Below, in pieces: positions 16,238 to 51,966 of a stretch of 57,253 nucleotides of DNA. Numbering within the stretch: position 1 is the first letter of the stretch; each line of letters opens with the position of its first letter. The stretch is from a virus: the IMG/VR virus record IMGVR_UViG_3300028829_007583, positions 1 to 57,253 of that record; one strand, written 5' to 3'. The position numbers were made by a program, and so were the translations under genes. The notes below the pieces were generated by a model, which saw nothing but the letters and a program-made list of their open reading frames with translations, was not told the origin of the DNA and ran no database searches.

Positions 16238-16752
16238 GCTATAGCTTTGACCATTCGGTCAATGAAATCGGCAACTTAGCATCAGGAATATACAAATTTG
16301 ATTTCGACGAAAATAGTCAATTTGTAAACCCTAGTTATCTTTCTGGTTGGTTGCAGAATAATATTGGCGAACTAAATGTTCTTACCCACACTAATTATAG
16401 TGGGGTGAATCCTGGCATGGGAAGCCAAGAACAAAGTATATATAGGCATATCTTTTTACGGGATTACTACAAGAAGTTGGGAAGAAAAGCTTTATTAGGG
16501 GTGAGTTATATTCCTTCATCTCAATCAGGATCAGGAGAAGTTGTAACATCAGATTGGACAGAACTAAGAGAAGGAGATAGTGTAATTAAGAGGAAGGCTA
16601 TGCTAGCAAGTCCTTCAGAAAAAATCACCACATCAAGGCAATACACCCAGCTTTCTAATGAATCAGCAAATGAATTAGAAAAATTATTATACAAGTATAA
16701 TATATCAAAAGGCGGGCCAAGGCAGGTAGCAGGAAAAGACTCTCCTGCTTAA
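16234..16752 (+). CDS. Putative head-tail connector protein
   Basis: A 172-residue protein translated from an ATGA overlap with the SAP-like gene. It has an aromatic central region (IYRHIFLRDYYKKLGRKALL) and a TSDWTELREGDSVIKR stretch. I do not recognise the family. Position directly after the capsid genes and before neck genes suggests an adaptor or head-completion protein. Its TAA stop overlaps the stop of the converging minus-strand gene by four bases, so no terminator separates the two transcripts. Confidence 0.4.
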   Translation: MSYSFDHSVNEIGNLASGIYKFDFDENSQFVNPSYLSGWLQNNIGELNVLTHTNYSGVNPGMGSQEQSIYRHIFLRDYYKKLGRKALLGVSYIPSSQSGSGEVVTSDWTELREGDSVIKRKAMLASPSEKITTSRQYTQLSNESANELEKLLYKYNISKGGPRQVAGKDSPA

Positions 16753-17738
16753 GAAAGATCCATAAGATCTTTCATGTTAAGGCTACCCCCTTTTTTTCTC
16801 GCAGCTTCAGAAAGTGAGCTTCCAGATTTAATGGAAGTTTTTTCGACTCCCATGTATTCGTAATCTTCTGCGGTTGCGCCAAAAACAGTAGAGGCTCCAT
16901 CTTTATTTAAATGCTCTTTCATTTTCTCTCTACTTTTAGAGTTGCTTGAAAAATCTAATAATGCCGCTGGATCTTTTCTTATTTTTTCGGGGATATCTTG
17001 GTTGTTATCGAATATATTTTTAAAAACTCTACTGTAAGTTAGTATAGATAACTGGTTATTAGTTAAATCAATTGCAGACTTACCAAAAAAACTATGTGGG
17101 CCGTCAGCCATATACATAAATGGAAAAAAGAATTCCTCTAAAATTATTTTTTGTATATTTTCCTCGCTGACAGATTTTACAACAGAATTATTTATTTCTG
17201 TTAGCTCTTTTATTTCACTGTAAGATAAGCTTGCAAAAAAATCATCAGACAAATATTTAGTTTTAAGATCTTTATCTTTGTAAAAACAATTTATGATAAA
17301 GTAATCATTTATTTGTTTGGAAGAATAACTTTCTGCAGTATTTCCAAGTATAGATTGCCTCTCAGACAATTTATTATTTAATTTTCCCTGCTCTTCATCG
17401 ATTATTTTTTGATGAGCATCTCTTTCTGATTTTAAATTTAAATTAGATTTTGTTTTTAATAAGTTATCTATAAAAATTTCTTGACCATCTATAAATGACT
17501 CATCTTTTTCTGACCAAATATCATTTTCTATAGCTTCCTCTAAGCATTTTTTCTCAGTTTGCAGACCTCTTCCTATAGCTTTCTTTAAGAAAAGGTCTTG
17601 CTTTTCATTGATGTCTATGTAATCGTTTGCATGGAGGTGCTTTACATAAACTTCCTCTTTTTTGTAATAAGATTTGCTATACCCTAGGCAAACATCTCTA
17701 AATATTTTTCTGTAGAAGTAATCGTCTTTCTCATACAT
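16749..17738 (-). CDS. Helical protein, possible second tail assembly chaperone
   Basis: A 329-residue, highly charged helical protein, last gene of a three-gene minus-strand island. It overlaps the preceding gene (17731-18492) by eight bases in the +1 frame, with GGA just before its ATG, which implies coupled translation. Residues about 120-180 are probably coiled coil. Residues about 265-325 are Ser/Lys-rich with a conserved-looking YMGVEKTSIKSGSSLSEAA segment. Tail assembly chaperones normally lie as an overlapping pair before the tape measure gene; no such pair is found between the tube and tape measure genes here, so this pair is a candidate. That role is inference from absence and overlap only. 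Confidence 0.3.
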   Translation of the reverse strand: MYEKDDYFYRKIFRDVCLGYSKSYYKKEEVYVKHLHANDYIDINEKQDLFLKKAIGRGLQTEKKCLEEAIENDIWSEKDESFIDGQEIFIDNLLKTKSNLNLKSERDAHQKIIDEEQGKLNNKLSERQSILGNTAESYSSKQINDYFIINCFYKDKDLKTKYLSDDFFASLSYSEIKELTEINNSVVKSVSEENIQKIILEEFFFPFMYMADGPHSFFGKSAIDLTNNQLSILTYSRVFKNIFDNNQDIPEKIRKDPAALLDFSSNSKSREKMKEHLNKDGASTVFGATAEDYEYMGVEKTSIKSGSSLSEAARKKGGSLNMKDLMDLS

Positions 17739-18492
17739 TTCCAGAGTCTATATCGTCATTCAAACTATCGAAATCTTCTTTTGACGCGTTAGCACTGAAA
17801 TACCAAAAACTTAATACAGATAAAAGTTTATCTTTAACAAGGTCAAAGATTTCATGGCCGTTTTCATCAATATCATAATATTGTTCTATTTTATCTTGAA
17901 CTTCTTCTCCGTTAAAGAATGGCTTAGCATCAAGATCTTCGTCTTCTTGATAAAAAGACAAATGGACTAAATACCACAATATAACTTTATTTTGAGCTTT
18001 GCTGTCTGCGGTATGATTAAAAAGCGAAGAGTAAGATGTTTCCATGTCTACTATATCCCTCCTCTTTTCTGCCATTTCACCTAAGAGGTTACTTAACTTT
18101 TTTTCATCCTTATCATCCTTTTTTGGCTTGGAGGAAAGCCTGCTGTATCTATTTTGGAGATCTCCAAGTTCGCTATACCTTCGAGTTAGAAGTTTGGCAT
18201 CATCTTCTGTTAGAAGGCCTCCTGTGTCACTATATTTTTTAGCTAGCATTGCTTTTGTAAGAATGCCCCTCTTAATGCATTTACTCATCTCAATGCTATA
18301 TTCAATGTCAGCTTCTTCTAAATCTCTTCTATTTGGCTCTTTCAATATAATTTTAACTGGTACTGGCTTCTTTTTGGTTTCCTCAACGGAGTATTCTTCC
18401 ATCTTGCCAGTTTCTTTATTCTTTCTTTTCTTTGTTACTGATTCTGTGACGTCTCTTTCGACATCAACACTGAAGCTATATATTTCTTTCAT
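17731..18492 (-). CDS. Putative tail assembly chaperone-like protein
   Basis: A 253-residue acidic protein. The central part holds VKIILKEPNRRDLEEADIEY followed by an IEMSKCIKRGILTKAML helix, a style of sequence I associate with tail assembly proteins of long-tailed marine phages, although I cannot confirm this without a search. Residues about 110-160 form a charged coiled coil. It is the middle gene of the minus-strand island, 11 bases after the 18504-18809 gene and overlapping the following gene by eight bases. No obvious slippery site was found in the overlap. Confidence 0.35.
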   Translation of the reverse strand: MKEIYSFSVDVERDVTESVTKKRKNKETGKMEEYSVEETKKKPVPVKIILKEPNRRDLEEADIEYSIEMSKCIKRGILTKAMLAKKYSDTGGLLTEDDAKLLTRRYSELGDLQNRYSRLSSKPKKDDKDEKKLSNLLGEMAEKRRDIVDMETSYSSLFNHTADSKAQNKVILWYLVHLSFYQEDEDLDAKPFFNGEEVQDKIEQYYDIDENGHEIFDLVKDKLLSVLSFWYFSANASKEDFDSLNDDIDSGNV

Positions 18493-22806: not shown

Positions 22807-25800
22807 ATGCCTCTAAAAATACCAACAATACAGGTCGGACTAGAAAAGTCTATACAAAAGGCTGTAAAAAATGTCAGCGCTAGAGGGGGCTTAAATTTAA
22901 GCTTAAATGATAAAAATTTCACAAGACCACTAGGCAAAATAACTGGGTCTGTAAGTGAATTTAATAGATCCTTAGAGGCTTCAAATGCTAGAGTATTAGC
23001 TTTCGGAGCTTCTGTCGGAATGATACAAGGTGTGCAAACTGCATTTAAGGCCTTGTTGCAAACCACCATACAGGTAGAAAAGCAATTAACGGAAATTAAT
23101 ATCGTCATGGGACTGACGAATAGCCAATTAGATGATTTCTCAAAAGGATTATTTAAAGTAGCAAAAAATACTGCTCAATCTTTCTCTACTGTAGCTACTG
23201 CAGCCACAGAACTAGCAAGACAAGGTTTAACAATGGAAGAAACCTTGAAAAGGACAAATGATGCTCTCATACTGACTAGGCTGACTGGATTAGACGCAGC
23301 TAGTGCGGTGAATGGTTTAACTGCCGCATTAAATACATTTAATAAAGCTGGTCTAGATTCTACTCAAATTTTAAGTAAAATGGCTGCCGTAGACGTGCAG
23401 TTTGCTGTTAGCACAGAAGATTTAATAGATGCTGTTTCTAGAGCTGGTGCTGTAGCTCAAGATGCAGGAGTTAGTTTTGATGAATTACTAGGTGCTGTTA
23501 CTGCAGCTCAACAAATGACAGCTAGAGGTGGTAAGGTTATCGGTAATAGTTTTAAAACTATTTTCACCCGTGTACAAAGATCTACCACGATTAGTAGGCT
23601 TGAGGAGCTTGGAATAGCCGTAAGAGATGTAGCGGGTAACACACTCCCAGCAATTAGAGTATTAGAAAACTTATCAGCCACTTATGATAAGCTAGCAGAT
23701 ACTACAAAAGCTGCTGTAGCTGAACAAGTTGGTGGAGTTTTCCAAATAAACATTTTAAAAGCTGCTATAAATGACCTTTCTTCATCAAATAGCATTCTAG
23801 CTAGAGCAACTCAAATATCTGCAAGTGCAAGTGATGAAGCATACAAAAAGAATGAAATATTAAATAGATCATTATCTGCATTATCATCACAAGCAGCAAC
23901 GAGTATAACTGAATTATCTAATATAATTGGAGAGATTGGATTCTCGAATCAAATAAGAGATTATCTTACATTTATAAGAGATCAGGTATCAAGCATAAAT
24001 GATTTTCTCGGTCAAAAAGAAGGGGAATCTGCTGGAGCTGATTTTGCCAAAGGGCTCATTAAAGGCATAGGTAATGTTATTAGTGGTCCAGGTTTACTAT
24101 TAGCGGCTGGTGTTTTAATAAAATTATTCGCAAAAACTTCTACATTTTTAGTGGGAAGTGCTAAAGAATTGATGGGTGTTGTTAGCGCTAGCCAAAGGCA
24201 AAAACAAGTTCAAGAATCAATAGTAGCTGTATTAGGGGAAAATAGTAGTCTTCAAAAAAGAATATTAGCCCAAGAGGGAAACAGGGCGGCACAAGAGAAG
24301 ACCATATTAACATTACTTCAGGCTCAGTCTAGAGAGCAGCAAAGAATAGCTGCTACAGCAAAAGCTGTTGGACCAGCTATACTAAGAGCTGGATTTAACA
24401 CCTCTTTACAAAGAGGAGGGAAGATAGCTAGTAGCGGCTTAATCCCAAACTATGTCACCCCGAAAGAAAAAGAAATGGAAAAACAGGGAGCCAGGGACGG
24501 TGGATACACTCCTGGCACCGTTAAATCCATGGACATAAAAGGAAAAGGAAGAATAATATATAATACAGCGGAAAAAGTTAAAAAATTTTCAGGAATGTCT
24601 GAGCCAGCAATATTACCACCTTGGAGAAGTAAGGCAGGAAGAAAGTACAAAAACACATTTGAAGAAACTCACGGATTCAACCCTTATGCTAATAAAGGAA
24701 TGATTCCTAATTATTCAAAATCTAGATCTAATATTACTTTTAAGGAGATGGGGGGAGGTCAAATTGGGGGCCCCCCAAGGCAGGTCTTATTTAAATCTAC
24801 GGTTGGAGGGGAGAAGTTCACAGATGCTCAAACAATGGAGATCGTAGACCCCAAAAACGGTGGCAAAATGGGACTGCAAGTTATTTTCACTGGAGACTCT
24901 CCCTCCGAAATGAGAGGAAAAGGATACGGAAGAGAGTTGTACGAATACATGGCGAAGTATGCCAAGAGGAATGGCTACGGAGGCTTATATGGAGATATGG
25001 GGACTTCCATATCAGCAATGAGAGTTGTAGATAGCATAGCAAAAAGAAAAAGCTTTAAAGTTGAAAAAAATCCAGACTTGAAGTTCATAAAAGATGACTT
25101 CGAAGAAGAAGGAATCTGGGGGAGCGACGACTGGACATATAGATTGTCAAACAAAGGCTTAATCCCGAATTACGGAGCATTTTCTCATGATAAAAATTTA
25201 TTAGGAAGCTTACTCGCTAATGATTTCGCCAAAGATGGAAGGATAAAATATCTTGACGCTCTTAGTTATGTTGACGAAAAAGGTTTAACATCTATATTAA
25301 AAAGCTTCAATAAATATGGAGAGCATGATGGCTGGAAGGCTTCTTGGCCTGGAATGCCCGTCAATCAGTTAATGAAGAATTTCCCCAAATACAGTACTGG
25401 CGGAAAACCTTACGATAGTGGAGCCAAAGGGCTTTACAGTGGATTAACCCCAACAAGAATAAAAGAAATATTAGAGAAGCCTGAAATAACAAGGCAATTT
25501 TATAAATATATAACTGGAAAAACATCCTCAATAGATGTGGAGTCTGGCTTGACACCTCAAGAAAAAGATTATTTTAAATCTAATTTTGGGATGGTTCCTA
25601 AATTAAAACACATAGAGGACGGTTTCGTTTCCAGTGGGGCGAATCAAAAAAAGAAAAATCTTAATGCACTAAGATATGACTTTCTTAAAGCAGGGCCTAA
25701 AGGTGGCAGCTCCACCATGAGCAAAATTAAAACTCAGTTCAGGGGAACTCTATTTAAAGACCCTAAAAGAAGAGCTAATCTTTTTAGGCAAAATAATGAA

Positions 25801-28800
25801 TTAGCACCAGATCCTATACTGCAATTACCTTATGACCCAGGCAGGAGGCATATTGACCCCAATATAAGAATGGCGCAGCCTGGTGACTACTTAAAAGCCC
25901 AGCAATTAAAGCTTGAACAAGAAATGATGGGGTCTCAATCTGGAATTCTAAGAGGATCCTCTTTTAGAGCTAGTGATATGGGTAGAATGAGGTCAGCACT
26001 GTCATTTAATACATCAGCCAGAGATTATCAAAATAAATTTTTAGTAAACGAATTCGAAGAGTTAATGAAAGGCCAAGAAGGAAAAAGAGATCCAATGTCT
26101 TTTTCTAAAGCCGAAAGAAGAATAAGCGGAAGATTAAAAGTAAATCCAAGAATTAGGAGTTTTTACGAAAATATGACAAGAGCCACTCGATCAAAATGGG
26201 GCTTTTCTGGAGGAATGATTCCTAATTTTGGATTAAAAATAAATGCTGGAGCCATGAAAAGCATTGGACTTCAGTCTACATTAGGTCAAGCTAAAAGTAG
26301 GCAAGAAGGAGTTATAGGCATGTCAGAGCTGGATAAAATCCTGCAAAGTAATTTATTTAAATCAATTAAATACCTCCCGCTAAAAAGCGACACTCCAATC
26401 ATGATAAAAAATGCAAGGTATGGAGTTCATAGCTTAAAGAAAGGAGCTCCCCCACCAAAAGGATTCAAAAGTTGGAAAGATTTTGACGAGAATAGCCCAC
26501 TTGGTAGAACCAGAGTGGTTTATGCTAAGCCAAAAACTGAATCTGAAAAACCTTTTAAGAGGCTTAAGCTTGAAAGAATAGAAAGTATAAACCATCAAGG
26601 AAAAACCCTTACAGTTGACCCTAATTTAGCTAACAACGGTTTAATTCCGAACTTTATTTTTAAGAAATTAAAAACTGTATCTCAGGCCGTAAAAACATTT
26701 AAAGAGGATACTGGGGCATTTTCAGCTGGAACCAGAAATAACATTTGGAGTACTACTCAAAATAAAATCAAGCTGAGATCTAGTAATTACGATGATGTCA
26801 GGCAATTTGTTAATAGCAAGAGTTTTAGACTATTAGATCCAGCAGAACAAAAAAGAATAAAATCCGATCTGAAAGCTCAATCCGAATCATTGAACATGAA
26901 TGATGTTACCAGGCCTTATTTTCAGTATGATGATCCTGATTACCAAGGAGCAATTCATGCAAATAAAGGTTTGATACCAAATTACTCAAAGCTTTTTTCA
27001 GAAGGAGCGAAAAATGTTTTATCTAAAAACCCTCAGTATACTGGAGCTGTTCAAGAAGCAATTCAAAGAGAGGCTTCTTTTGGATTAACCCCCAAGGTCG
27101 TGGAAGCTCACTCATTAAAGAGCTCTAAGAATCCTGGTCTTGCCGTAGTAAACCAAGAGCAGGAATCTGGAAGTTTACAAAAAGCCAGAATTCTTCATGG
27201 AGGGTTGAACCCTAATCAAAAAACTTCAGCCGTTCCCAACTATGCAAAAACACAAGTTGATGTAACCAAAGTACTACAATTAAGAAAAGAATCTGTAAGA
27301 AACATAAATGATGTAGGTTTAAATTCAGTATCTAAATCTTTTGATAGAGCGGCTAATGTGATAGATAAGTTTTCAACAAGCGTCAAAAGCGCTCAATCTT
27401 ACCTCGGCCAACAAGGTACTGAATACGCAAAATCATCAGAGTTAATTAAAGAAGCTAATCTAAGAGAAAAAGCGAGGCTCGGAACTTTAGAAAAAGAGAC
27501 TTCGGCTAGAAAAAAATACATGAGAGAGGTTCTTAGAAAGGACTCCCTAGCGAAACTTTCTTCACGATCTGGACCAGTAGGAGAATTGGCAACACAATTT
27601 ATGGGCTCTAGTAATTTTGAAAAAGATTTAAAATTCAGAATGGGGGTAGCCAAGGAAGCTAATGACTTTGAAACATTAAAAGGTCTGAAAAAGTTTGACA
27701 AGGCAATAGACGAAAGTGCCAGAGGCATGTTTAATAATGCAACCACAAAAGCTAGTATATTAAATAGCCAACTCAGAGAGAGTACAAAAGACGGAAATAA
27801 ACTAAAAAGATTTCAAGGGGCAGAAGGTTTTGGCAAAAGAGAAATGAGGAAATTTTTTAGTCAAAGCTTTCTTCAAGAAAGAGGCATCCAAACACTTGAC
27901 AGTAAAGAGTCCATGAATGTTATGGCTTCAATGGGAGAAAGGGGAGAAAAAGCATTTCAAGATTATGTAAAATCCCAAGGCGTAATGTCTAGCAATAAAA
28001 CTTTAGCAAGAGCAGGTCTTAGAACTGGAGATTTCTCATCATTGCTTGGAGGAAATGATGGAAAAAACTTCATAAAACAATTAGAAAAGTACCAAAGAAT
28101 GGTTGACGGCGGTGCTAAGGGCAAGGGCACAGCCAGAAGAGAGCTTATGAGAGAGGCTGCCAGAATTGGTGCAGATTCAGCTTCTTCAGAGAAACTCCAA
28201 AGCATGGTGCTTTCAACTCAAAAACAAGTTAAAGATGATGCTCCTAAAGGAGCACCGCAATCAGCAAGAGATAGAATATCAGGAGGAAGAATTTCTGGAG
28301 CTCTTGGATCCTTCCAGTCTGGAATGTCTGGATCTGGATTAAGATCTCAAGGGTTTATGGGACTCGTTGGGAATAGAGCAGGGCAAGGAATCAATAGATT
28401 TGGAACTGGAGCGAAAAACTTTATGAAGGGTGGGTTTGGTGCAGCTGGTGGGCAAATGGGATTAGGCCTCTCTATAGCCGCCCCAATGTTAGCGGGCATG
28501 GTGGCAAATAAAACCCCAAGGGAAGATAGAGCCGTATTACAAAATGGACAATTTAATGTTCAGGGAACTGGAGCAGATACGGCATCTAGTACATTGATGG
28601 GTGTTGGTATGGGAGCTATATTTGGTGCTCCAGGCGCTATTGTAGGAGGTGTTATAGGATTTGTACAGTCTCTTACGAAGGCAACTCTAACTATAGATGA
28701 ACAAATAAGAGTAAGAGAAAAAGAAATAGCCATCATAGGTCAAAATGTTCAAGCAGCCCAATCTCTTCAGAATTTATCATCAGCTAGGGCTGAAGCTTTT

Positions 28801-31800
28801 GCCGTAGGAGACTCTGATAGAATCGCAGAAATTGATACAGCAATGAATAGAGCTTTGGCTGGGGTCAATGATAAAAAAACATTAACAGCTTTAGCTGCAT
28901 CAGGGGGAGATTCAGATGCTTTGTCAAAAATACAAAGACAACTACAAGATCAAATGACAAACGCTGTTAGTGTTCAGAATTTTGGAGTAGCTCTAAAGAA
29001 TTCCGACCAACAAAAAGCAGCAAAAAATGCTGGAGTTGCAATGGGAGGAATGATAGCCCAAGCAATAAGAAATGAAAATGTAGATGAATCTACTGCACTA
29101 GATATATTGAGAAATATACAGACTAGTACGGCTCAAAAAGAAAAAAGTGGAATGCTTGACACTAAAAGCCTAAATGCTTTAAGGAAAAAAGCCTCAGGAG
29201 GTCAAGAGTTAACCAGTGGACTAGGTATGGCAGGAGGTCTTGCTGGAGGACTGATGGCTGGAGGAGCTGCCTTGAGTATGTCTGGAGTAGGCATGCCGCT
29301 TGGGTTGGCAATGGCGGCTGCAGGAGCAGGAATAGGCATGTTAAGCGGAAGAGCTTGGGAAAGTGGAGCAGCTAAAAGTGATTTAGAAAAACAACAAAAA
29401 TTAGGATTAGATGAAATTAACGAACTATCAAAACTAGTAGATGCTGGAGCGATGACAGAGACTGCAATGAATCAATTAGTTGCAGCTTTTAGGGAGGGAG
29501 AAATAAGCATGGGAGATATAGCTAAAGAAGCAGAATCTGCCGTTGTAGAGTTTCAAAAAATTAAAAAAGCATCTGATAGAGCAAGCTCTGCGTTATTTAA
29601 TATAGATCAATCATTCAAAAGAACTATTGGCAAAATGGTTGTTGATTTAGAAGTTAACAAGATAAGATCAGCAGCTGAATCTAACGCAAGAAAATCGAAT
29701 GTTAATTTCACATCTCAATTCATGTCGCCAATTAGTGCTAGTGATTTCTTAGCAAGAGAACAATCTAAAATATTAGCTTCGGATGCTCAAGGCAGAGTAG
29801 GACAATTTCAAAGAGAAACAGATATTAATTTCCTTAGAGGAGTTCAATCAAAATCAAAAAGTTTAAATTTCGGCGGGCCACAAATGGAGTTCGTAAGAAA
29901 GACGGTCGAAGATCAAGGAGTTGGCTCGATAGAGTCAATGATCAGAAGAAGGGAAATGTCTGGAGTAATGAATTTAAACCTAAATACAAAAAATCTTGAC
30001 GATATATTTGAAAAAGTAGGAGTAAAAGGTGGGGTCGATGCTTTCAATAAAGATAGCAAAATAACAATGCCAGAAAACTTGAACGAACTGAAAGACCTTC
30101 TTGGCACTGGAGATAAAGATGAACAAAAAAGAATAATGGATGAGCTTGTCGCAAACCTACCTAAGGCAAGACAAGAAGGATCCATGCAAACTAAATTTAC
30201 AAGAGCTCTTGAAGGAGCAGATGTTCAAACTTTAACAGAAATAATAGATTTAAGGAAAGAGCAGTTTAGAATTGTTCAGGAGCAAATACTGGCTGAAAGA
30301 AAAAATTTAAGCATACAAATAGCTCAACAAAAAATACAAACACAAATACAGGCGAAGCTTGAAAGCTTAAGGCAGGAATCTTCAAATAGAAGTATGGCCT
30401 TAGACACTAATATGATAGGTGTGAGAGGGAGGGCTGACACAAACAGATCACTCACTGGTTTTGAAGCTCAATCTCCTATTTTTAGAGGAATGTCTTCTGA
30501 CGCGGAAGAGTCAAAAAGACAGACTGGTCTAAGAAAAAGAGTTTTTGATGAAGATATAAAAGTTAGAAAAGCTGAAGCTTTAAATATGTTAAAAAAAGAG
30601 GCTGTCAGACTTTTATCTGAGAAAAATTTAGTTGATGCATTAAATGATTTAAAATCATCAATAGAAAAAGAAACTGATTTTGCAGCTACAGAAGGAAATC
30701 AAGTAGGCTCACAAAAAGGGCAACAGATTCCAGTAAAGACTGAGCCGTCATCCGCAGCCAGTTCGGCATCTGGAGCGGGAGCTGGAAAAAGTCCAGCTGT
30801 AAAAATGGGAAAACAAATGTCTTCGTTTAAAACGAGCGGAAACAATGAGGAAGGCTCAAAGAGGATAAAGGAAATAGGAAAAAAGATAGATCAAAATAAT
30901 ATAGAAATAAAAACTCAAGAGAGTAAGCTGAACACTGAAAGTAGTGTAGAAGACACACTAGCAACAAAACTTAAAAAATATAAAGGTGTATTAAAACAAC
31001 TTGAAAACTTAAATAACTTGCCTGAAAACAAAACCTCTTTCAGTAAGCCTGGCAATCTATTCAAACGTAACGAACGAGATGATTCAAGAGAAAGCGCAAA
31101 AAGAAAACTTCAAGATTTGGATCTTAATCAATTTTCAAAAGTTACAGGAACTCGCCTTGATGTTTTTGATGGATTTGATTCAGGAGATTCTGGGGGGAGC
31201 TATGTACAAACTAGCAGGGATGCAACTGATGCCGAAATGATCAAATCAATGACAGATCTTGTTGAAAAAACAGAATCCCAACTACAAGAGACTAGAAGTA
31301 AAAAAGGATCTACAGAGAGTGCTATAGAAAAAGCTAAATCAGAAATCCAAGAACAAAAAAAGCAGATCGAAGAAATAGAAAAGCAAATGGCAGAAGGTGT
31401 TGTTGAGCTTTCTGACACTCTTAAAGGCCAAAATATAAGTTTAAAAAACATCAATGTAGAAAAGACAGCAAATTTAACTAAAGATTTATTTAAGGCTGAT
31501 TCAATAGAAGGACTTACCGAAACTCTAAATAAGAATTTAGAAGATATTAAGGCTAATGACCCTTCTGGACAAATAGCTCTTCAGCTTCAAGGATGGGGAG
31601 AGTTGGTTAACAATGTTGGAGCTAGTCTAGATGATGCCGTTCGAGCATTTAACGTAGAAGAGGCTAAGAGAGCTCAAGAAGAATTTAATAGAAATTTGAC
31701 ATTTTCAAATTATTCAAGCGGAGCATTTGAGCAGCTTAATGCCATTAATCAAGGACAGAAAACCATTCGCGCTGGTGTTGGAGTAGGAATTATGGATAAA

Positions 31801-33537
31801 GTTGTTGACCAGGAAAGAAGGCAACTAAATTTTGACACAATAAACCAAGATCCAACATCAACACCACTAGAAAGAGCAAGAGGAAAAGCAGAACTACAAT
31901 CATTCACCATAGGAACAAAAGATCAAAGAGTTCAAATGGGGAGCCTCAGGGACGAACAAGCCCTTCAAAATAGAGATTTAATTGATGCTGAAAGAGACAG
32001 ATTAAATGCAGTATCCGCAGGAAAAGCAGCTAAGACTGACGAAGCAAAGTTTGCCGCAAAAAGTGTGGAAGAATCAGCTGTTGCTAGAATAGCAGAATTA
32101 AAAGGTACAATAGAAAACCTTGACAAAAGTATGCTAGACTTAGCTCATCAAATGGAGAGAACTACCCCAAGAGATAAAGGGTTCGTCTCTGAATTTAAAC
32201 AAAATACATCGATGGGGCTTGAGTTAGGTTTTGCTGAAATAGAAGCTCAATCTGAGCAAATATATACAAGACTAGGACAAGACTTGCCAATGGTTTTCAG
32301 AGATGGTCTTGTAGACGCAATGCAAGCAGCCTTAGACGGAAGTCAAAAATTAGGAGATTCCTTTGAGCAAATAGGAATGTCTTTATTACAAAACATACAG
32401 AAAGCATTCCTGACAAGTGCTTCAAACAGAATAACTGGTGCCGTAGGATCTGTGTTTGGGCTAGACGGTTATAATACTGGGGGATATGTAAATGGTGGAA
32501 GTGGAATAAAAGATGATGTCCCAGCGATGTTAATGGGGGGAGAGTATGTAATCAAAAGGAGTGCTGTACAAAAATACGGAGTAAACTTTTTAGAAAACTT
32601 AAATCAAGGAAGTATACAAGGGTTTGCTGGAGGAGGAGCCGTTCTTAATGTAGGATCTCCAATGGCAGCAGAAAGAGAGTCTTATGTAGACAAAAGTAAA
32701 TATGGAAATGTAACTAGATATAAAACAAAACAAGCTGGTATAGGAATCAATAGTCAGCTTACTGGATATGCAATAGCAAATGATAGAAGTATACAGAAAT
32801 ACTTTAGAGATCAAGAGACTCAATTTAATCAGAATTTAAATACAAAAAAACAAGAAGAAGCAAGACAGAAAAATAAAGATTACGAGAAGAAGGCAAAGAA
32901 AAGAAGCTTTTGGAATATGGTTATAGGAATAGCTGGATCCGCTTTATTGGGGAAAGCTGTTCAATGGGGTACTGATAAGTTCAAGCAAACCGATTTTTAC
33001 AAAAATAGAGCTGCAGCTAAGGCTGAAAGGTCTATGGCGGATAATGGATATGTTCAAGTAAGAGGTAAAAGCATTCAGCGATTATACCCAAAACCTTCAG
33101 ACCAATCTGGTGTCAGGAAAATGATTAGCAATGCCCACAGGGATGGAGGCTGGAAAGCTGCATCTACAATAATGCGGGATAATAATATAAGAGGTACTGT
33201 TGACGAAACTGGGGTACAACTAAATAAAGGCGGCGCAGTACCAGCAAGGCTTACTGGAGGGGAATATGTAATGAGTCCAGGAGCTGTTAAAACTTATGGC
33301 TCTTCATTGATGCAGAATTTAAACAATGGCTCCATACAAACTGGCGGTCAATCTGGTCAATCTGGTCAAGTAAGTAATGTTTCCCATGGAGATGTGAATA
33401 TAAGTATAAATGTAGACAATTCTGGAGGAGCTTCTTCTGGAGGAGATTTAAATTCACCAGAGTTTGCGTCAAAAGTCAAGAGTGCAGTAATGAATATAAT
33501 TTCACAAGAAAAAAGAGTTGGAGGGAGTTTGAGGTAA
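22807..33537 (+). CDS. Tail tape measure protein (TP901-type core) with modular insert
   Basis: A 3576-residue protein. Residues about 60-340 match the TP901-type tape measure core (VEKQLTEINIVMG, ELARQGLTMEETL, TAARGGKVIGNSFKTIFTR-like segments). Residues about 543-1480 are not tape-measure-like and are cut by repeats of G-L/M-I-P-N-Y/F at 544, 631, 784, (degenerate) 928, 1136, 1278, 1388 and (AVPNYA) 1475. The stretch 640-780 contains RGKGYG (703-708), the acetyl-CoA motif of GNAT enzymes. Hydrophobic Gly/Ala stretches at about 420-440, 1931-1957, 2139-2182 and 3369-3385 could cross membranes during injection. The C-terminus has two copies of a GGEYV(I/M) motif, at about 3244 and 3484. At 0.15 nm per residue the full chain predicts a tail near 530 nm, or about 400 nm if the insert is left out. 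Confidence 0.9.
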   Translation: MPLKIPTIQVGLEKSIQKAVKNVSARGGLNLSLNDKNFTRPLGKITGSVSEFNRSLEASNARVLAFGASVGMIQGVQTAFKALLQTTIQVEKQLTEINIVMGLTNSQLDDFSKGLFKVAKNTAQSFSTVATAATELARQGLTMEETLKRTNDALILTRLTGLDAASAVNGLTAALNTFNKAGLDSTQILSKMAAVDVQFAVSTEDLIDAVSRAGAVAQDAGVSFDELLGAVTAAQQMTARGGKVIGNSFKTIFTRVQRSTTISRLEELGIAVRDVAGNTLPAIRVLENLSATYDKLADTTKAAVAEQVGGVFQINILKAAINDLSSSNSILARATQISASASDEAYKKNEILNRSLSALSSQAATSITELSNIIGEIGFSNQIRDYLTFIRDQVSSINDFLGQKEGESAGADFAKGLIKGIGNVISGPGLLLAAGVLIKLFAKTSTFLVGSAKELMGVVSASQRQKQVQESIVAVLGENSSLQKRILAQEGNRAAQEKTILTLLQAQSREQQRIAATAKAVGPAILRAGFNTSLQRGGKIASSGLIPNYVTPKEKEMEKQGARDGGYTPGTVKSMDIKGKGRIIYNTAEKVKKFSGMSEPAILPPWRSKAGRKYKNTFEETHGFNPYANKGMIPNYSKSRSNITFKEMGGGQIGGPPRQVLFKSTVGGEKFTDAQTMEIVDPKNGGKMGLQVIFTGDSPSEMRGKGYGRELYEYMAKYAKRNGYGGLYGDMGTSISAMRVVDSIAKRKSFKVEKNPDLKFIKDDFEEEGIWGSDDWTYRLSNKGLIPNYGAFSHDKNLLGSLLANDFAKDGRIKYLDALSYVDEKGLTSILKSFNKYGEHDGWKASWPGMPVNQLMKNFPKYSTGGKPYDSGAKGLYSGLTPTRIKEILEKPEITRQFYKYITGKTSSIDVESGLTPQEKDYFKSNFGMVPKLKHIEDGFVSSGANQKKKNLNALRYDFLKAGPKGGSSTMSKIKTQFRGTLFKDPKRRANLFRQNNELAPDPILQLPYDPGRRHIDPNIRMAQPGDYLKAQQLKLEQEMMGSQSGILRGSSFRASDMGRMRSALSFNTSARDYQNKFLVNEFEELMKGQEGKRDPMSFSKAERRISGRLKVNPRIRSFYENMTRATRSKWGFSGGMIPNFGLKINAGAMKSIGLQSTLGQAKSRQEGVIGMSELDKILQSNLFKSIKYLPLKSDTPIMIKNARYGVHSLKKGAPPPKGFKSWKDFDENSPLGRTRVVYAKPKTESEKPFKRLKLERIESINHQGKTLTVDPNLANNGLIPNFIFKKLKTVSQAVKTFKEDTGAFSAGTRNNIWSTTQNKIKLRSSNYDDVRQFVNSKSFRLLDPAEQKRIKSDLKAQSESLNMNDVTRPYFQYDDPDYQGAIHANKGLIPNYSKLFSEGAKNVLSKNPQYTGAVQEAIQREASFGLTPKVVEAHSLKSSKNPGLAVVNQEQESGSLQKARILHGGLNPNQKTSAVPNYAKTQVDVTKVLQLRKESVRNINDVGLNSVSKSFDRAANVIDKFSTSVKSAQSYLGQQGTEYAKSSELIKEANLREKARLGTLEKETSARKKYMREVLRKDSLAKLSSRSGPVGELATQFMGSSNFEKDLKFRMGVAKEANDFETLKGLKKFDKAIDESARGMFNNATTKASILNSQLRESTKDGNKLKRFQGAEGFGKREMRKFFSQSFLQERGIQTLDSKESMNVMASMGERGEKAFQDYVKSQGVMSSNKTLARAGLRTGDFSSLLGGNDGKNFIKQLEKYQRMVDGGAKGKGTARRELMREAARIGADSASSEKLQSMVLSTQKQVKDDAPKGAPQSARDRISGGRISGALGSFQSGMSGSGLRSQGFMGLVGNRAGQGINRFGTGAKNFMKGGFGAAGGQMGLGLSIAAPMLAGMVANKTPREDRAVLQNGQFNVQGTGADTASSTLMGVGMGAIFGAPGAIVGGVIGFVQSLTKATLTIDEQIRVREKEIAIIGQNVQAAQSLQNLSSARAEAFAVGDSDRIAEIDTAMNRALAGVNDKKTLTALAASGGDSDALSKIQRQLQDQMTNAVSVQNFGVALKNSDQQKAAKNAGVAMGGMIAQAIRNENVDESTALDILRNIQTSTAQKEKSGMLDTKSLNALRKKASGGQELTSGLGMAGGLAGGLMAGGAALSMSGVGMPLGLAMAAAGAGIGMLSGRAWESGAAKSDLEKQQKLGLDEINELSKLVDAGAMTETAMNQLVAAFREGEISMGDIAKEAESAVVEFQKIKKASDRASSALFNIDQSFKRTIGKMVVDLEVNKIRSAAESNARKSNVNFTSQFMSPISASDFLAREQSKILASDAQGRVGQFQRETDINFLRGVQSKSKSLNFGGPQMEFVRKTVEDQGVGSIESMIRRREMSGVMNLNLNTKNLDDIFEKVGVKGGVDAFNKDSKITMPENLNELKDLLGTGDKDEQKRIMDELVANLPKARQEGSMQTKFTRALEGADVQTLTEIIDLRKEQFRIVQEQILAERKNLSIQIAQQKIQTQIQAKLESLRQESSNRSMALDTNMIGVRGRADTNRSLTGFEAQSPIFRGMSSDAEESKRQTGLRKRVFDEDIKVRKAEALNMLKKEAVRLLSEKNLVDALNDLKSSIEKETDFAATEGNQVGSQKGQQIPVKTEPSSAASSASGAGAGKSPAVKMGKQMSSFKTSGNNEEGSKRIKEIGKKIDQNNIEIKTQESKLNTESSVEDTLATKLKKYKGVLKQLENLNNLPENKTSFSKPGNLFKRNERDDSRESAKRKLQDLDLNQFSKVTGTRLDVFDGFDSGDSGGSYVQTSRDATDAEMIKSMTDLVEKTESQLQETRSKKGSTESAIEKAKSEIQEQKKQIEEIEKQMAEGVVELSDTLKGQNISLKNINVEKTANLTKDLFKADSIEGLTETLNKNLEDIKANDPSGQIALQLQGWGELVNNVGASLDDAVRAFNVEEAKRAQEEFNRNLTFSNYSSGAFEQLNAINQGQKTIRAGVGVGIMDKVVDQERRQLNFDTINQDPTSTPLERARGKAELQSFTIGTKDQRVQMGSLRDEQALQNRDLIDAERDRLNAVSAGKAAKTDEAKFAAKSVEESAVARIAELKGTIENLDKSMLDLAHQMERTTPRDKGFVSEFKQNTSMGLELGFAEIEAQSEQIYTRLGQDLPMVFRDGLVDAMQAALDGSQKLGDSFEQIGMSLLQNIQKAFLTSASNRITGAVGSVFGLDGYNTGGYVNGGSGIKDDVPAMLMGGEYVIKRSAVQKYGVNFLENLNQGSIQGFAGGGAVLNVGSPMAAERESYVDKSKYGNVTRYKTKQAGIGINSQLTGYAIANDRSIQKYFRDQETQFNQNLNTKKQEEARQKNKDYEKKAKKRSFWNMVIGIAGSALLGKAVQWGTDKFKQTDFYKNRAAAKAERSMADNGYVQVRGKSIQRLYPKPSDQSGVRKMISNAHRDGGWKAASTIMRDNNIRGTVDETGVQLNKGGAVPARLTGGEYVMSPGAVKTYGSSLMQNLNNGSIQTGGQSGQSGQVSNVSHGDVNISINVDNSGGASSGGDLNSPEFASKVKSAVMNIISQEKRVGGSLR
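24433..27246 (+). repeat. Eight dispersed G-L/M-I-P-N-Y/F motifs inside the tape measure
   Basis: Copies start at nucleotides 24436, 24697, 25156, 25588 (GMVPKL, degenerate), 26212, 26638, 26968 and 27229 (AVPNYA). Most are preceded by Asn/Lys/Ser and Gly. The spacers are 82 to 200 residues long and differ from each other, so this is not a simple tandem repeat but a boundary signal between different modules. The codons differ between copies, arguing against recent duplication. Confidence 0.8.
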
Positions 33538-34369: not shown

Positions 34370-35127
34370 AATATATAAGACATCAAGAATGCGAAATACA
34401 GATAAATGGAGAAAAATTTTTTGCAAAAGATGCTTCTTTGTCAACATCAACTTCTATTGAGGCAAAACGGGTATACGGAGGAGAATTAAGAAATTATCTG
34501 GCAAGCTCTGCTGAAAGTGCAAATGTACAGTTTAGTTATTATTTAACTGGGAAAGAAGACTCCATAGGATTTTTAACTGGAAATAATTCTTGCTCTGGAA
34601 GTTTTTGTGGAATAAATTTTTCTGGAGCATATTTAACTAACTATGGAATAGAGATAGCTCCATATAAGCCTGTGCAATTCAGTGCATCATTTGATATTTA
34701 TAGTGGGTTTGAGAGTGAAACTAAAACTGGATCCTTCACTACAGACCCAGTGAAATTCGCAAACGGAGCATATACTGAACTTTTAAATTTTAATAAAAAT
34801 AATATAGGCTTAGATTTTCCAACAAATATATCATACTCAGTAGAATGCGAAAGAAAACCTAGCTATGTAATAGGACAACAATATCCTCAGGATGTGGTCC
34901 AGGGAAAGGTATCGAGAATGATTTCTATAAATGGAGAAAACATTGGAAAGGTCATCGATTATTCAGGTAGGGATTTTGCAAAAGTATCCATATCTCCCAA
35001 AACAATGGATTATGCAGCAAGAGGTAGAACTATAGAATGTGAGGGAATAATAACAAGTCAAAATTTAAGCATATCAACTAAAGGCTTAATGAATGGTAGT
35101 ATAGAAGTAATGGAGAGTATGAGATGA
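34366..35127 (+). CDS. Tail-tube-like paralogue, putative tail-tip adaptor
   Basis: A 253-residue protein with the same two-part plan as the previous gene and the tail tube protein: residues about 22-60 (ASLSTSTSIEAKRVYGGE, then VQFSYYL) and about 154-180 (ISYSVECERKPSYVIGQQYP). It overlaps both neighbours by ATGA, so the three genes after the tape measure are tightly coupled. Probably forms another ring at the tail end. No enzymatic motif is seen. Confidence 0.5.
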   Translation: MKYIRHQECEIQINGEKFFAKDASLSTSTSIEAKRVYGGELRNYLASSAESANVQFSYYLTGKEDSIGFLTGNNSCSGSFCGINFSGAYLTNYGIEIAPYKPVQFSASFDIYSGFESETKTGSFTTDPVKFANGAYTELLNFNKNNIGLDFPTNISYSVECERKPSYVIGQQYPQDVVQGKVSRMISINGENIGKVIDYSGRDFAKVSISPKTMDYAARGRTIECEGIITSQNLSISTKGLMNGSIEVMESMR

Positions 35128-36098
35128 ATACTTTAAACAAAACAAGATTCTGGAATTTAGAAAAAGATTATTATGTAGACTCTGAAAATGTGGGGTCTGA
35201 TTTTTATAATAATTACGAAAGTTTTATAAAAGGATCAAAAATAGATTCAAACCTTAAAAATTTTAAATACAATAACCCCTTTTCTTTTATTCCTTCTTAT
35301 AATTCATCTGTATCTATAACTTTTTTAAATAAAGTATCTTCCTATGGAGATAATTATATATCAATAGAACCACGGTCATTGAATAGAATAATTTTTGAAG
35401 CTAACTTAAGTTTTGATAATAGAAATGACGATGAATCTTCTAATATAGTTGAATACATTAATTCCAAAAAAGGGGCTGATTATTTTCCGCTTCAAATGAT
35501 AGATAGGAATGGATTAAGTAATGAAAATGCATATAAATCCCTATTTTCGATAAAACCTTATTTTGTGCAAGAATTTAGTTGCAATAAGATTACTTCCAGT
35601 TCAACCTACAAAGGAGATAATAATATTCAATTAATTTTTCTGAATGATTTAATAACACAAACAACTGTTAGAAATATAATTTATGTAAATTCTATGCCTG
35701 AAGACAAAAAACAGATAGTAAATGAATATTGGCATAAAGAAAAACTAGATATAAGACCTTCTTACCCACTTTCAAGAGAAGAAGATTTTAAAGTCTCTAA
35801 TGTTAATTTAGGAAGTTCAAAAACATACATAGAAAAAGATGGAGTTAACCCAAAATTAGCTACAATAAACTTAAATTTTAATGGCATAGACGACGATACT
35901 TTGTTAAAACTTTTAGCATTTTTTCTATCAAAACAAGGGTATGAAAGTTTTGAATTTGAACTAGAAAAGCCAGAAAAGAAAGTTATAAATGTAACAGCTT
36001 CGAAAATACAGCATACTTTTCTTTACATGAACTCTCATAATGTAAGCATTAGTATTTCAGAAGTCCCCGTGAGGAGAAAATTTTTCTTCAAACCTTAG
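35124..36098 (+). CDS. Putative minor tail protein (lambda gpM position)
   Basis: A 324-residue protein between the tube-like rings and the gpL relative, the place of lambda gpM. Its last 100 residues (LATINLNFNGIDDDTLLKLL, then YESFEFELEKPEKKV and a closing SISISEVPVRRKFF strand) have the beta-rich look of tail-tip ring proteins, but the protein is about three times as long as gpM. The N-terminal 220 residues are not recognised. The ATGA overlap couples it to the preceding gene; a promoter-like box separates it from the next. Confidence 0.4.
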   Translation: MNTLNKTRFWNLEKDYYVDSENVGSDFYNNYESFIKGSKIDSNLKNFKYNNPFSFIPSYNSSVSITFLNKVSSYGDNYISIEPRSLNRIIFEANLSFDNRNDDESSNIVEYINSKKGADYFPLQMIDRNGLSNENAYKSLFSIKPYFVQEFSCNKITSSSTYKGDNNIQLIFLNDLITQTTVRNIIYVNSMPEDKKQIVNEYWHKEKLDIRPSYPLSREEDFKVSNVNLGSSKTYIEKDGVNPKLATINLNFNGIDDDTLLKLLAFFLSKQGYESFEFELEKPEKKVINVTASKIQHTFLYMNSHNVSISISEVPVRRKFFFKP

Positions 36099-36120
36099 TC
36101 GAAAAAACTTGAATAAAAAA

Positions 36121-36126
36121 TATTAT
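36121..36126 (+). promoter_or_regulatory. Candidate -10 box (TATTAT) five bases before the gpL-like gene
   Basis: TATTAT is followed by ATATA and the ATG at 36132, without Shine-Dalgarno. Same arrangement as at 1891-1901. Confidence 0.3.
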
Positions 36127-36131
36127 ATATA

Positions 36132-37037
36132 ATGGCATTTCTAAAAAAAGAAGAGGTAAACGCGGAACTCTTTAATCATAGCAAAAATTCCTGTATAGAA
36201 TTTCTGGAAATATCAGAGATTCCAAACTCCAGCGATGTTATAAGATTCCACGGGGGTTTAAATTCGATACATGAATCTGTTTACTTTGATAGTAAAGAAT
36301 ATTTTTACATACCATATGAGGGTAGTGATTTCGGGACCAGATCTGACGGAAGAGTTTCAAGGCCGACTATAAAGATCATAAACTTTAGCGGTTTTCTTTC
36401 TAAATTTATGATGGGCAAAGATGATCTACTAAAATCAAGGGTTAAGAGAATTAGAACTTTCTTTAGATTCCTGGATAAAGAAAACTTTTTAAATTATGAT
36501 TCAGAGAAGCAATTCTGGGACTCAATGGGAATAAACCCTGATCCAGAAGCTGTACTCAGGCCTGATATTTGGTATATAAATCAAAAAATAGAAGAAAATA
36601 AATTCTTTGTCGAGTTTGAGCTTTCTAATGCATTAGATTTAGAGGGGTCAACTCTACCAAGAAGACAAATAATAAACAATTATTGCTATTGGAAATACAG
36701 AGGGAAGGGATGCAGGTATTCAGGGGGAGTCGTTGCAGATTCTAATAATGTTAAATTTGACAAAACGAGCTTAACACCAAAAGGTGAGTGGGCCGAAGGC
36801 ATTGATTATGTTTTAGGAAATGTAGTTTATTTATGGACTAGAGAGGGGCACGGGCAAAGAGCTTTAATGTATGTTTGCACTGAACCTCACACATCTTCAG
36901 ATGAAACCAGACCTTCAATAAATTCTAAAAATTGGGCAATGGATGCATGCTCGAAAACATTAAAAGGATGCAGAATGAGATTTGGTGAGAAATCCGTACT
37001 TCCTTATGGCGGATTCCCGTCAAGTAGACTTTACTAA
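36132..37037 (+). CDS. L: Minor tail protein L (tail tip, iron-sulfur type)
   Basis: A 301-residue protein with the clear signature of the lambda gpL family: LDLEGSTLPRRQIINNYCYW and a four-cysteine set, Cys185 and Cys194 (NYCYWKYRGKGCRY) with Cys273 and Cys280 (DACSKTLKGCRMRFG), ending in LPYGGFPSS. In lambda, gpL binds a 4Fe-4S cluster through C-terminal cysteines and links the tip to gpJ; all four are present here. Compared with lambda it has a longer insert between the two pairs. The order L, K, I, J that follows is lambda-like. Confidence 0.9.
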   Translation: MAFLKKEEVNAELFNHSKNSCIEFLEISEIPNSSDVIRFHGGLNSIHESVYFDSKEYFYIPYEGSDFGTRSDGRVSRPTIKIINFSGFLSKFMMGKDDLLKSRVKRIRTFFRFLDKENFLNYDSEKQFWDSMGINPDPEAVLRPDIWYINQKIEENKFFVEFELSNALDLEGSTLPRRQIINNYCYWKYRGKGCRYSGGVVADSNNVKFDKTSLTPKGEWAEGIDYVLGNVVYLWTREGHGQRALMYVCTEPHTSSDETRPSINSKNWAMDACSKTLKGCRMRFGEKSVLPYGGFPSSRLY

Positions 37038-37039
37038 AA

Positions 37040-37420
37040 ATGCAAGAAGAAATTTTAAATAATATAAAAAAAATATCGGAAGCTAATCCTGAAGAGGAAG
37101 TGTGCGGCTTCTGGGTCTCTTGCAAGAAGCAACCAATAATTCAATGCAAAAATGTAGCACTAGATCGGGAAAACAACTTTGAAATATCTGCGGAAGAATA
37201 TATAAACACATTTAATACAAAAAATATAATTCTACTATTTCATTCTCACCCAAAAGACACCGAAAGATTTTCAAAAGAAGATTTGTATATAAGTCAGCAA
37301 TTAGAGATGCCAATATTAGTATACAGTAATGCAACAAAAAAATTTAATTTTTATAAGCCAGATTCAATAAAAAAAAATAAAACACTAAATACTATAGAAA
37401 AAAGTGTAGTTACATACTAA
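37040..37420 (+). CDS. Tail assembly protein K, JAMM/MPN domain only
   Basis: A 126-residue JAMM-type domain: a Glu near residue 19-20 (PEEEVCGFW), His68 and His70 in LLFHSHPKD, then Ser78 and Asp81 in RFSKEDL, matching E...HxHPx(n)SxxD of zinc isopeptidase-fold proteins. Lambda gpK joins this domain to a C-terminal NlpC/P60 peptidase; here the chain stops after the JAMM part and no NlpC/P60 gene follows. It begins three bases after the gpL stop. The metal-binding residues are intact, so it may be active in tail-tip assembly or in cutting the cell wall. Confidence 0.8.
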   Translation: MQEEILNNIKKISEANPEEEVCGFWVSCKKQPIIQCKNVALDRENNFEISAEEYINTFNTKNIILLFHSHPKDTERFSKEDLYISQQLEMPILVYSNATKKFNFYKPDSIKKNKTLNTIEKSVVTY

Positions 37421-37430
37421 GGAAAAGGAA

Positions 37431-38144
37431 ATGAAAATTATTCTGCACGGACATATAGGAACAAAATTTGGCAAAGAATGGGATTTAAGTGTAAAGTCTC
37501 CAAATGAAGGTCTCAGGGCTATAGATGCTAATACGGGTGGATTCTTTTCTTATTTGGGGAGTAAAGAGAATGAAAATTTATATTTTAGGATATACAGGGA
37601 TAAGAATTCTATAGGAAATCATGAAGAACTCGGACTTGAGTCGAGTAATACAAATACTGTACATTTTTTTCCTATAATTAAGGGGTCTTCTGAAAGGTCA
37701 AGAGAGGCCAATAGAATGATGGGATATGGAGCACTTGGCCTGGGTGTATCTTGGGGTCTGGATTACTTAGGAGCACAAATAGGCGGAACATTTGGTGCAA
37801 TTCTGGGTTGGGTTGCTGATATAGGTTATGAAATAAGTGCCTCCATGATGATACAAGGAGCAATGATGCATTTAACAAAAGATCCTCCCGACCCTCCTAA
37901 TCATGAAGATGCTCAAATAGCATCAAAATCAACTACATCTTATACTTTTTCTAGACCTCTAAATAATACTACCCAGGGTGCTGTTGTTCCAGTTGGTTAT
38001 GGGAGATTAAGAATAGGTAGTCATGTAATATCTTCTCATTTGATGAACAGTAGACTAGCAGCATTTAATCAAGTAAGAAATTCGACAGAAGATGATAATG
38101 GAAATTTAGTAGGAGCTGTCAATGTTGATCACTATACACTATAA
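37431..38144 (+). CDS. Tail assembly protein I-like
   Basis: A 237-residue protein. The start (MKIILHGHIGTKFG) and the C-terminal motif VPVGYGRLRIGSHVISS are typical of lambda gpI-type tail assembly proteins. A Gly/Ala-rich hydrophobic segment lies at about residues 100-150 (MMGYGALGLGVSWGLDYLG and following), as in this family. AAGGAAAAGGAA directly precedes the ATG, one of few Shine-Dalgarno sequences here. The gpJ relative follows after three bases. Confidence 0.75.
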   Translation: MKIILHGHIGTKFGKEWDLSVKSPNEGLRAIDANTGGFFSYLGSKENENLYFRIYRDKNSIGNHEELGLESSNTNTVHFFPIIKGSSERSREANRMMGYGALGLGVSWGLDYLGAQIGGTFGAILGWVADIGYEISASMMIQGAMMHLTKDPPDPPNHEDAQIASKSTTSYTFSRPLNNTTQGAVVPVGYGRLRIGSHVISSHLMNSRLAAFNQVRNSTEDDNGNLVGAVNVDHYTL

Positions 38145-38147
38145 GTC

Positions 38148-51965: not shown

Positions 51966-51966
51966 T

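Follow-up and report, generated by a model that had tools for sequence, protein, structure and literature searches.

Single enzymes fused to a phage tape measure protein (TMP) are already known. In Thermus phage P23-45 the TMP is fused to a virion RNA polymerase, and this TMP-fused enzyme is virion-borne and early-acting (PMC10770324). Here we analyze DNA from an uncultured virus of bacteria (IMG/VR record IMGVR_UViG_3300028829_007583; the whole 57,253-nt stretch is referred to as the window) and describe a TMP of 3576 residues (22807..33537, plus strand, as are all TMP features below) that carries an internal block of modules separated by copies of a short motif, G[LM]IPN[YF], which we also call the seam. 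As described in the sections of PMC10770324 that we draw on, the P23-45 protein has one fixed N-terminal enzyme and no array, seam motif or module exchange, whereas the block in the window is internal, multi-module and combinatorial.

Other described systems share some of these features. The mt3 motif of the mycobacteriophage TM4 TMP is a peptidoglycan hydrolase that is dispensable for viability and aids infection of stationary cells (PMC1796659). In the portions of that paper considered here, small enzyme-like motifs lie inside many siphophage TMPs, as in the window, but they are cell-wall related and have neither an array nor a conserved separator. The contractile-injection effectors Tme and Sle1 likewise involve a TMP-like carrier in a tail-like particle, and the functional C-terminal region of the Sle1 type differs between relatives; according to the excerpts used (PMC11126660, PMC13277306), however, these are bacterial systems with a C-terminal functional domain, whereas the window encodes an internal array followed by a long C-terminal part.

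Polyvalent proteins are multidomain conflict proteins of phages and conjugative elements, and their delivery at the time of invasion has been suggested (Iyer et al. 2017, PMC5512222). Our set has up to ten variable segments in one TMP and several enzyme families overall, but the window has one identified module only; the carrier and the seam motif differ, and tape measures have 0 occurrences in the main text of PMC5512222, the part of the source to which this count applies. Polymorphic toxins, as far as the relevant passages of PMC3482391 and PMC5576092 go, also combine a constant carrier with exchangeable functional cassettes, but their variable toxin domain is C-terminal. Here the variable region is internal, many cassettes are possible, and a C-terminal part of 936-2097 residues follows the block in 39 of 39 complete TMPs. 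The open-access full texts searched (subscription papers and preprints lay outside this scope) contained precedents with one enzyme, and no array of several swappable cassettes linked by a conserved joint.

A conserved motif divides the tape measure protein

The open reading frame (ORF) is identified as a TMP by its N-terminal part, which matches PhageMin_Tail (Pfam accession PF10145) above the cut-off (E 1.8e-25), and by matches to PHROG tape measure families, including phrog_4211 (E 5.5e-54). Between the N-terminal part (residues 1-543, 22807..24435) and a C-terminal part measuring about 2097 residues (27244..33537), presumed to be a rod, a pattern search located six strict motif copies: GLIPNY at residue 544 (24436..24453), GMIPNY at 631 (24697..24714), GLIPNY at 784 (25156..25173), GMIPNF at 1136 (26212..26229), GLIPNF at 1278 (26638..26655) and GLIPNY at 1388 (26968..26985). 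A seventh, degenerate copy, S-A-V-P-N-Y, starts at residue 1474 (27226..27243). The motifs span residues 544-1479 with spacings of 87, 153, 352, 142, 110 and 86 residues, and a look-alike inside module 5, FGMVPK, lacks the N-[FY]. An earlier interpretation made without database searches (the sequence-only reading) had placed the block at 24433-27246, in agreement with the motif limits of 24436 and 27243; its count of eight copies at intervals of 82-200 residues gives way to six strict copies plus one degenerate copy at intervals of 86-352.

To relate the motif to other phages, two sets of loci were assembled. A search of IMG/VR with the N-terminal part of the TMP returned 19 loci, including L017, which matches the query at 100% identity and the window at 99.93% over 21,626 nt. 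The block is reached in 18 of the 19, and all 18 contain 3-11 motifs of a slightly looser pattern at varying positions. A second search with module A, the first module of the block, matched 214 contigs. The best 80 of these entered the analysis; removal of 15 near-duplicates left 65 distinct TMPs, 39 of them complete. Module A is present in these 65 by construction, as the search query, and the part preceding it is homologous to the N-terminal part in the window in 65/65 (37-99.8% identity).

The motif is far above chance and, in the loci covered, restricted to the TMP. Among 2000 shuffled versions of the window TMP, none had more than 1 strict copy and the mean was 0.0005; a looser pattern, applied to the six-frame translation of the window, recovered only the TMP ORF and two minus-strand sites taken as chance. 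In the 65 distinct TMPs, 342 of 342 strict motifs fall within the block, which was taken as extending to the protein end in the nine TMPs that lack the end module Z (L061 and eight that run off their contig). Across the 80 loci (L021-L100), 415 of 415 strict motifs are in TMP ORFs and 0 in other stop-free frames of at least 100 residues. The relatives also inform motif composition: G occurs in 93% of copies, though absent from the search pattern, the residue after this G is mostly F, L, H or Y, and A follows the motif in 52%.

A DNA pattern scan for GFIPNFA, which is not a census, extended the comparison. It matched at least 120 stretches, and in 114 of the 120 listed the sequence lies in a stop-free frame of at least 60 residues. 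Among the matches listed, 104 of the 114 frames have two or more motifs, 73 (72 of the 104 multi-motif frames) have homology to the TMP N-terminal part, and only 31 have a simple A or Z signature. Since most of these frames lack an A or Z signature, the motif appears to be wider than the A-Z family; frames without N-terminal homology may be cut or different. The sequence-only reading had mentioned similar motifs in long tape measures of marine phages, and such motifs are indeed common in tape measures of uncultured phages. What that reading noticed holds, with the corrections given above, and extends well beyond one phage. In tblastn searches of 50,697 phage records, block queries found no cultured relative, and the N-terminal part alone matched 205 records, all below 60% identity.

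At the DNA level, homogenization of the motif within arrays reached p<0.05 in 6 of 60 phages (led by L029, L067 and L076). Overall codon likeness of the motifs (0.501 vs 0.473 expected) is inside the null range (maximum 0.510) and is not general evidence for it.

Constant modules frame a variable cassette array

That the block is a cassette array framed by a constant first module A and a constant end module Z is well supported. In the window, module A covers residues 550-630 (24454..24696; 13-row alignment A4) and module Z residues 1394-1473 (26986..27225; 7-row alignment A3). Four variable modules lie between them: a GNAT acetyltransferase-like module with the loop RGKGYG (residues 637-783, 24715..25155; 8-row alignment and fold match), the mainly helical module 5 (residues 790-1135, 25174..26211; 12 loci), the alpha/beta module 3 (residues 1142-1277, 26230..26637; 12-row alignment A1 and model) and the helical module 8 (residues 1284-1387, 26656..26967; 7 loci). 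In the 39 complete TMPs, 539-564 residues precede module A. Of the 65 TMPs, 56 have module Z, which is the last delimited module in 54, and eight of the nine TMPs without it stop at a contig end. Among the complete TMPs, 25 have one variable segment between A and Z and the other 14 have two to seven; long incomplete TMPs have up to ten.

The cassettes are diverse. Single-linkage clustering, in which some clusters chain, groups 332 segments into 39 clusters with more than one member plus 31 singles among segments of at least 20 residues; some members of cluster 3, in L067 and L076, are doubtful (two of them share 12% identity). With loci from the pattern scan added, 623 segments of at least 40 residues form 102 clusters, a set in which module Z is merged with two nuclease-like clusters. 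The mutual dissimilarity of the segments noted in the sequence-only reading is borne out by all-vs-all BLASTP, in which the variable modules of the window cluster with modules of other phages and not with one another. The exception is one loose cluster at E 1e-3 that joins the 346- and 104-residue segments of the window and splits at 50% coverage, apparently because both sit in one segment in some relatives, such as L002. In 7 of the 7 loci with module 8, its sole right neighbor is Z; given this fixed position, it may belong to the end module as an optional component and not be a free cassette.

Related phages point to module exchange at the motif

Sequence comparisons show that phages gain, lose and duplicate modules and swap them with one another, with breakpoints mostly at the motif, and confidence in this modular architecture and exchange is high. 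The module order in the window is A-GNAT-m5-m3-m8-Z (m, module), and the orders seen in relatives include A-m5-m3-GNAT-Z, A-m3-GNAT-m5-m8-Z and A-m5-m3-m8-Z; one contig from a metagenome-assembled genome (MAG), L117, has the same order as the window. Module 3 has 5 types of left neighbor and 5 of right neighbor in 12 loci (8 and 7 in 14 loci when two doubtful loci are included).

Two pairs of phages share closely similar N-terminal parts. The N-terminal parts of L067 and L076 are 99.0% identical and those of L044 and L071 96.8% identical, yet the arrays differ within each pair. L044 and L071 are alike again after the block (92.7% over the first 400 residues of the C-terminal part). In L067 and L076, a 4.25-kb homology stops within one base of the end of the motif that follows A and restarts at the first base of a later motif; a 266-residue unit consisting of one whole module between two motif copies is present in L067 and absent from L076, with the seam left intact. 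Of the alignment ends inside the block, 5 of 9 for L067/L076 and 7 of 8 for L044/L071 are no more than 6 nt from a motif, a zone that makes up 5-7% of the block (binomial p 3.4e-5 and 1.2e-8, in coordinates of the first member and with ends that are not fully independent). Tandem copies of whole cassettes that start at the motif occur in L071 (238 of 240 nt identical) and L038 (520 of 525 nt). The check on whether spacers are exchanged between relatives, as the sequence-only reading proposed, has in this way come out in its favor.

The exchanged modules appear to be under purifying selection: median ratios of nonsynonymous to synonymous substitution (dN/dS) are 0.125-0.273 across the nine module sets with usable pairs. 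These values come from unsaturated pairs of 65-99% identity, with one pair each for module 5 and cluster 14 and none for module 8.

Predicted structure of the block

An AlphaFold model of residues 538-1490, built with the 17-row alignment A9 (in which module A has only 2 relatives and the GNAT module 1), contains separate alpha/beta and helical domains and no single rod; one continuous helical rod, like a motif frequency at chance level in related tape measures, was an outcome that the sequence-only reading had set against its own proposal, and neither came about. The mean predicted local distance difference test score (pLDDT) is 59.0, the predicted template modeling score (pTM) is 0.34 and 336 of 953 residues are below 50. 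All seven motifs of the window fall in stretches of pLDDT below 50 between predicted domains, and such stretches also occur inside modules, for example module 5. A further model, made for a short relative and with 25 rows crossing the motifs, has a mean pLDDT of 57.1 with 117 of 429 residues below 50, and its 4 of 4 motifs are again in such stretches. The low-confidence positions are suggestive of domain linkers, not proof of them; together with cassette ends that lie mostly at the motif, they lend good support to the earlier suggestion that the motif marks domain borders. An alignment of the whole block (A7), in which each module homolog was a separate fragment, was misaligned and was dropped.

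An acetyltransferase-like module

The window module at residues 637-783 is predicted to be an acetyl-CoA-dependent acetyltransferase. A VIA fold search with its predicted model matched 1z4e (Z 9.2, root-mean-square deviation 3.6, 101 aligned residues), an entry titled transcriptional regulator that we take to be a GNAT protein, and almost every one of the 50 rows shown has a title that names an acetyltransferase. Best VIA Z scores of 7-8 are common, so the weight lies with the agreement among rows. Foldseek gave 2dxq (E 0.012, probability 1.00). The acetyl-CoA loop of GNAT enzymes has the signature [RQ]-x-x-G-x-[GA], which the RGKGYG of the window follows, and R67, G68, G70, Y71 and G72 are invariant in 8 of 8 GNAT rows. 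Among modules of relatives, the best Acetyltransf_1 match has an E of 0.0017, and a sequence-profile search of the PDB gave weak acetyltransferase matches only (best E 0.3). When the whole window model was compared with a viral library, the best match (A0A1V0SDN7) had a root-mean-square deviation of 42.9 and is meaningless; several short matches in the same listing are titled acetyltransferases.

Content of the other modules

Modules of related phages include further enzyme families. At E 0.01, Pfam matched 10 families in 143 segments and 14 in 92 others, most in one member each. These families include GNAT, SNase, GHKL-type ATPase, AAA, nucleotidyltransferase C-terminal region, PGDYG and CI-type helix-turn-helix (HTH). 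SNase (L068) and nucleotidyltransferase C-terminal region (L040) exceed the curated cut-off, and E values include 1.9e-9 for SNase and 3.8e-5 for HATPase_c_3, whereas FliG_N, NAM-associated and Flav_NS3-hel_C matches are probably chance. PADLOC and PHROGs scans of the 143 modules gave single, mostly weak matches in one member each.

A module common in short TMPs has E264, D287 and K311 invariant in a 25-row alignment (A10), with D or E two residues ahead of K311 in every row. The pattern G..FE/D/[DE]xK, which was made after the alignment, occurs in 99 of 320 segments, which are not independent of one another, vs 2 of 320 shuffled ones. A PD-(D/E)XK nuclease is the natural reading of these conserved residues. 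In short TMPs (for example L093:10001-11287 and L051:10001-11302), this nuclease-like module is often the only cargo that lies between A and Z.

For modules A and Z, no family match was obtained. PDB profile searches returned nothing credible for modules 3, 5 and 8 or for an A-nuclease-Z set. By eye, module 3 had suggested a WYL domain, but 5 of 5 module-3 sequences had no Pfam match up to E 10 and the idea was dropped; for module 8, the ribosomal protein S18 chain matched at E 7.5e-5 was taken as chance, as were less significant matches. Segments in three relatives (L041:2529-3278, L032:5178-6212 and L033:12074-12613) looked by eye like ADP-ribosyltransferases and had no Pfam match of that kind. 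Protein kinase or HAD phosphatase looks, by eye and unconfirmed, were noted in L044:12761-13531 and in clusters 14 and 18 of the 623-segment set, and a HAD-like DWDGT occurs in 5 of 320 segments.

Proposed delivery of the modules

We propose a tripartite TMP, in which a tape-measure domain at the N-terminus is followed by a payload block and then by a long C-terminal part that is presumably a rod. The payload would consist of independently folding modules on flexible linkers carrying G-x-[IV]-P-N-[FY]-A. As enzymes and host-directed effectors, the modules would be virion-borne as part of the TMP, and ejection of the TMP ahead of the DNA would bring them into the host cytoplasm, where they would act before any phage gene expression. 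Less certain is the role of the seam itself. In the protein it could keep modules apart, perhaps through recognition by a chaperone or protease as threading or release takes place; in the DNA, its repetition as an 18-nt sequence would permit in-frame recombination that swaps whole modules.

TMPs exit the tail before the DNA and pass into the envelope or membrane. The cytoplasm is where acetyl-CoA and nucleotides are found, so GNAT and nucleotide enzymes would make most sense if delivered to the cytoplasm. Within the window's group (7 complete TMPs), the C-terminal part is near-constant at 2023-2097 residues while the block varies from 685 to 1090 residues, which suggests that payload and ruler are separate parts of the TMP. 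Taken as a whole, and by analogy with the RNA polymerase fused to the P23-45 TMP, the reading in which the modules are virion-carried enzymes or effectors, delivered with the DNA and exchanged at the motif, is in our judgment a reasonably probable one. The sequence-only reading had likewise taken the segments to be cargo that enters along with the DNA.

Alternative accounts and points against delivery

Another account is that the motif is chiefly a protease site, with a TMP precursor cut at every motif and the modules stored separately in the virion. This is compatible with the delivery reading, in which the block might also be freed by cutting at the seams, and differs in the role that it gives the seam. 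A single short conserved border motif that is restricted to the TMP and lies in predicted flexible linkers is what such a site might look like, but no protease was found among the 20 window proteins scanned with PHROGs or the 10 scanned with Pfam, a subset of the ORFs in the window. To our knowledge, moreover, the motif resembles no known cleavage site. We regard this account as unlikely, and are similarly doubtful of cleavage at the motif in general.

The modules could instead act locally during envelope crossing and stay with a membrane-inserted TMP, in the manner of mycobacteriophage TMP hydrolase motifs such as TM4 motif 3, a peptidoglycan hydrolase (PMC1796659). A hydrophobic 19-mer lies ahead of the block, in the N-terminal part, in 38 of 39 complete TMPs and another after the block in 22 of 39 (residues 420-438, 1932-1950 and 2161-2179 in the window), and the block is perhaps a loop of a membrane protein. 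Because hydrophobic stretches precede and often follow it, the block might be a loop that faces the cytoplasm, and a membrane-anchored block of this kind would be a variant of the delivery reading. No peptidoglycan hydrolase, however, is among the Pfam families matched at E 0.01 in the 143 and 92 modules, and GNAT, SNase, GHKL-ATPase and nucleotidyltransferase need cytoplasmic cofactors or substrates. Local action in the envelope is quite unlikely on this evidence.

A further proposal is that the modules form a changeable coat, in which shuffled bulky domains hide a TMP surface seen by defenses or superinfection exclusion. The SNIPE defense associates with the lambda TMP during injection and phage escape maps to the TMP (PMC13190303), and an arms race would agree with the different arrays that N-terminal parts carry when near-identical. 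Against a coat, the acetyl-CoA loop is intact in 8 of 8 GNAT modules and other cofactor-using families are present, E/D/[DE]xK is invariant in 25 nuclease-like modules, and dN/dS is low. Active-site motifs, cofactor families and low dN/dS point to catalysis rather than bulk, and we consider the coat improbable. That the block is a passive spacer of functionless chance domains lengthening the ruler is very improbable: TMP length does set siphophage tail length, but dN/dS is well below 1, conserved active-site motifs recur and the C-terminal part in the window's group keeps its length irrespective of that of the block.

Several results weigh against delivery of exchanged, enzymatic modules. The chief difficulty is the fit of folded modules in the tail lumen: three TMP copies with folded modules would hardly fit a lumen of about 4 nm, so storage would need to be in an unfolded state or at another site. 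In the window, three variable modules of the four (3, 5 and 8) have no family by Pfam or PDB profiles, and the nuclease-like pattern is in no window module. For the GNAT module, no Foldseek match reaches E 0.001, and Acetyltransf_1 on the window TMP (E 0.095, 13.4 bits) is below the 20.7 cut-off; the PD-(D/E)XK assignment is unsupported by a fold search with a low-confidence model, by PDB profiles or by Pfam. Both structural models are weak, with over a third of the window model below 50, and alignment rows ending at the motifs may themselves lower confidence there. Across all 39 complete TMPs the C-terminal part ranges over 936-2097 residues and varies between groups. As to exchange, L067 and L076 are only 41.4% identical over the first 400 residues of the C-terminal part and, since this part has diverged despite the shared N-terminal part, are mosaic rather than clonal. 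Of 518 module pairs, just 16 show greater likeness than the N-terminal parts of the TMPs that carry them: some recent transfers can be seen, but most exchanges would be old or the modules faster-evolving than the N-terminal part.

Genomic neighborhood and host

By gene content the phage is a siphovirus, since the genes downstream of the TMP are lambda-like tail-tip genes (minor tail, tail assembly and central fiber J families at 35124-44561). Elsewhere in the window, an esterase-like gene lies at 9350-10189, and two minus-strand ORFs at 16749-18492, with no Pfam match, break the plus-strand gene run ahead of the tail genes. Large ORFs (about 400-1330 residues) in 1880-9311, 10244-12280 and 46791-54360 had no match, each having been scanned against one library (PHROGs or Pfam).

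L117 (contig JAQXAG010000048.1) is binned with Candidatus Neomarinimicrobiota; five neighbor genes share 67-76% amino acid identity with the window and the TMP 58%. Two relatives are in Halobacteriovorax MAGs. The L117 bin is a possible, weak host hint, and as MAG bins are weak evidence no host is claimed.

Implications for uncultured tailed phages

More broadly, the seam may be a general cassette joint, which would serve recombination in the DNA and act as a signal for threading, release or processing in the protein, such that any module placed between two seams, from A to Z, is packaged in the tail and reaches the host cytoplasm before expression in many uncultured tailed phages; we put this forward tentatively, at somewhat less than even confidence. 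If the modules are delivered, old questions about which cargo besides DNA a tail carries and how folded proteins pass through the tail tube would become testable. The arrays would represent a catalog of possible counter-defense and takeover enzymes in uncultured phages, and these phages would pre-load a toolkit that works ahead of the first transcript.

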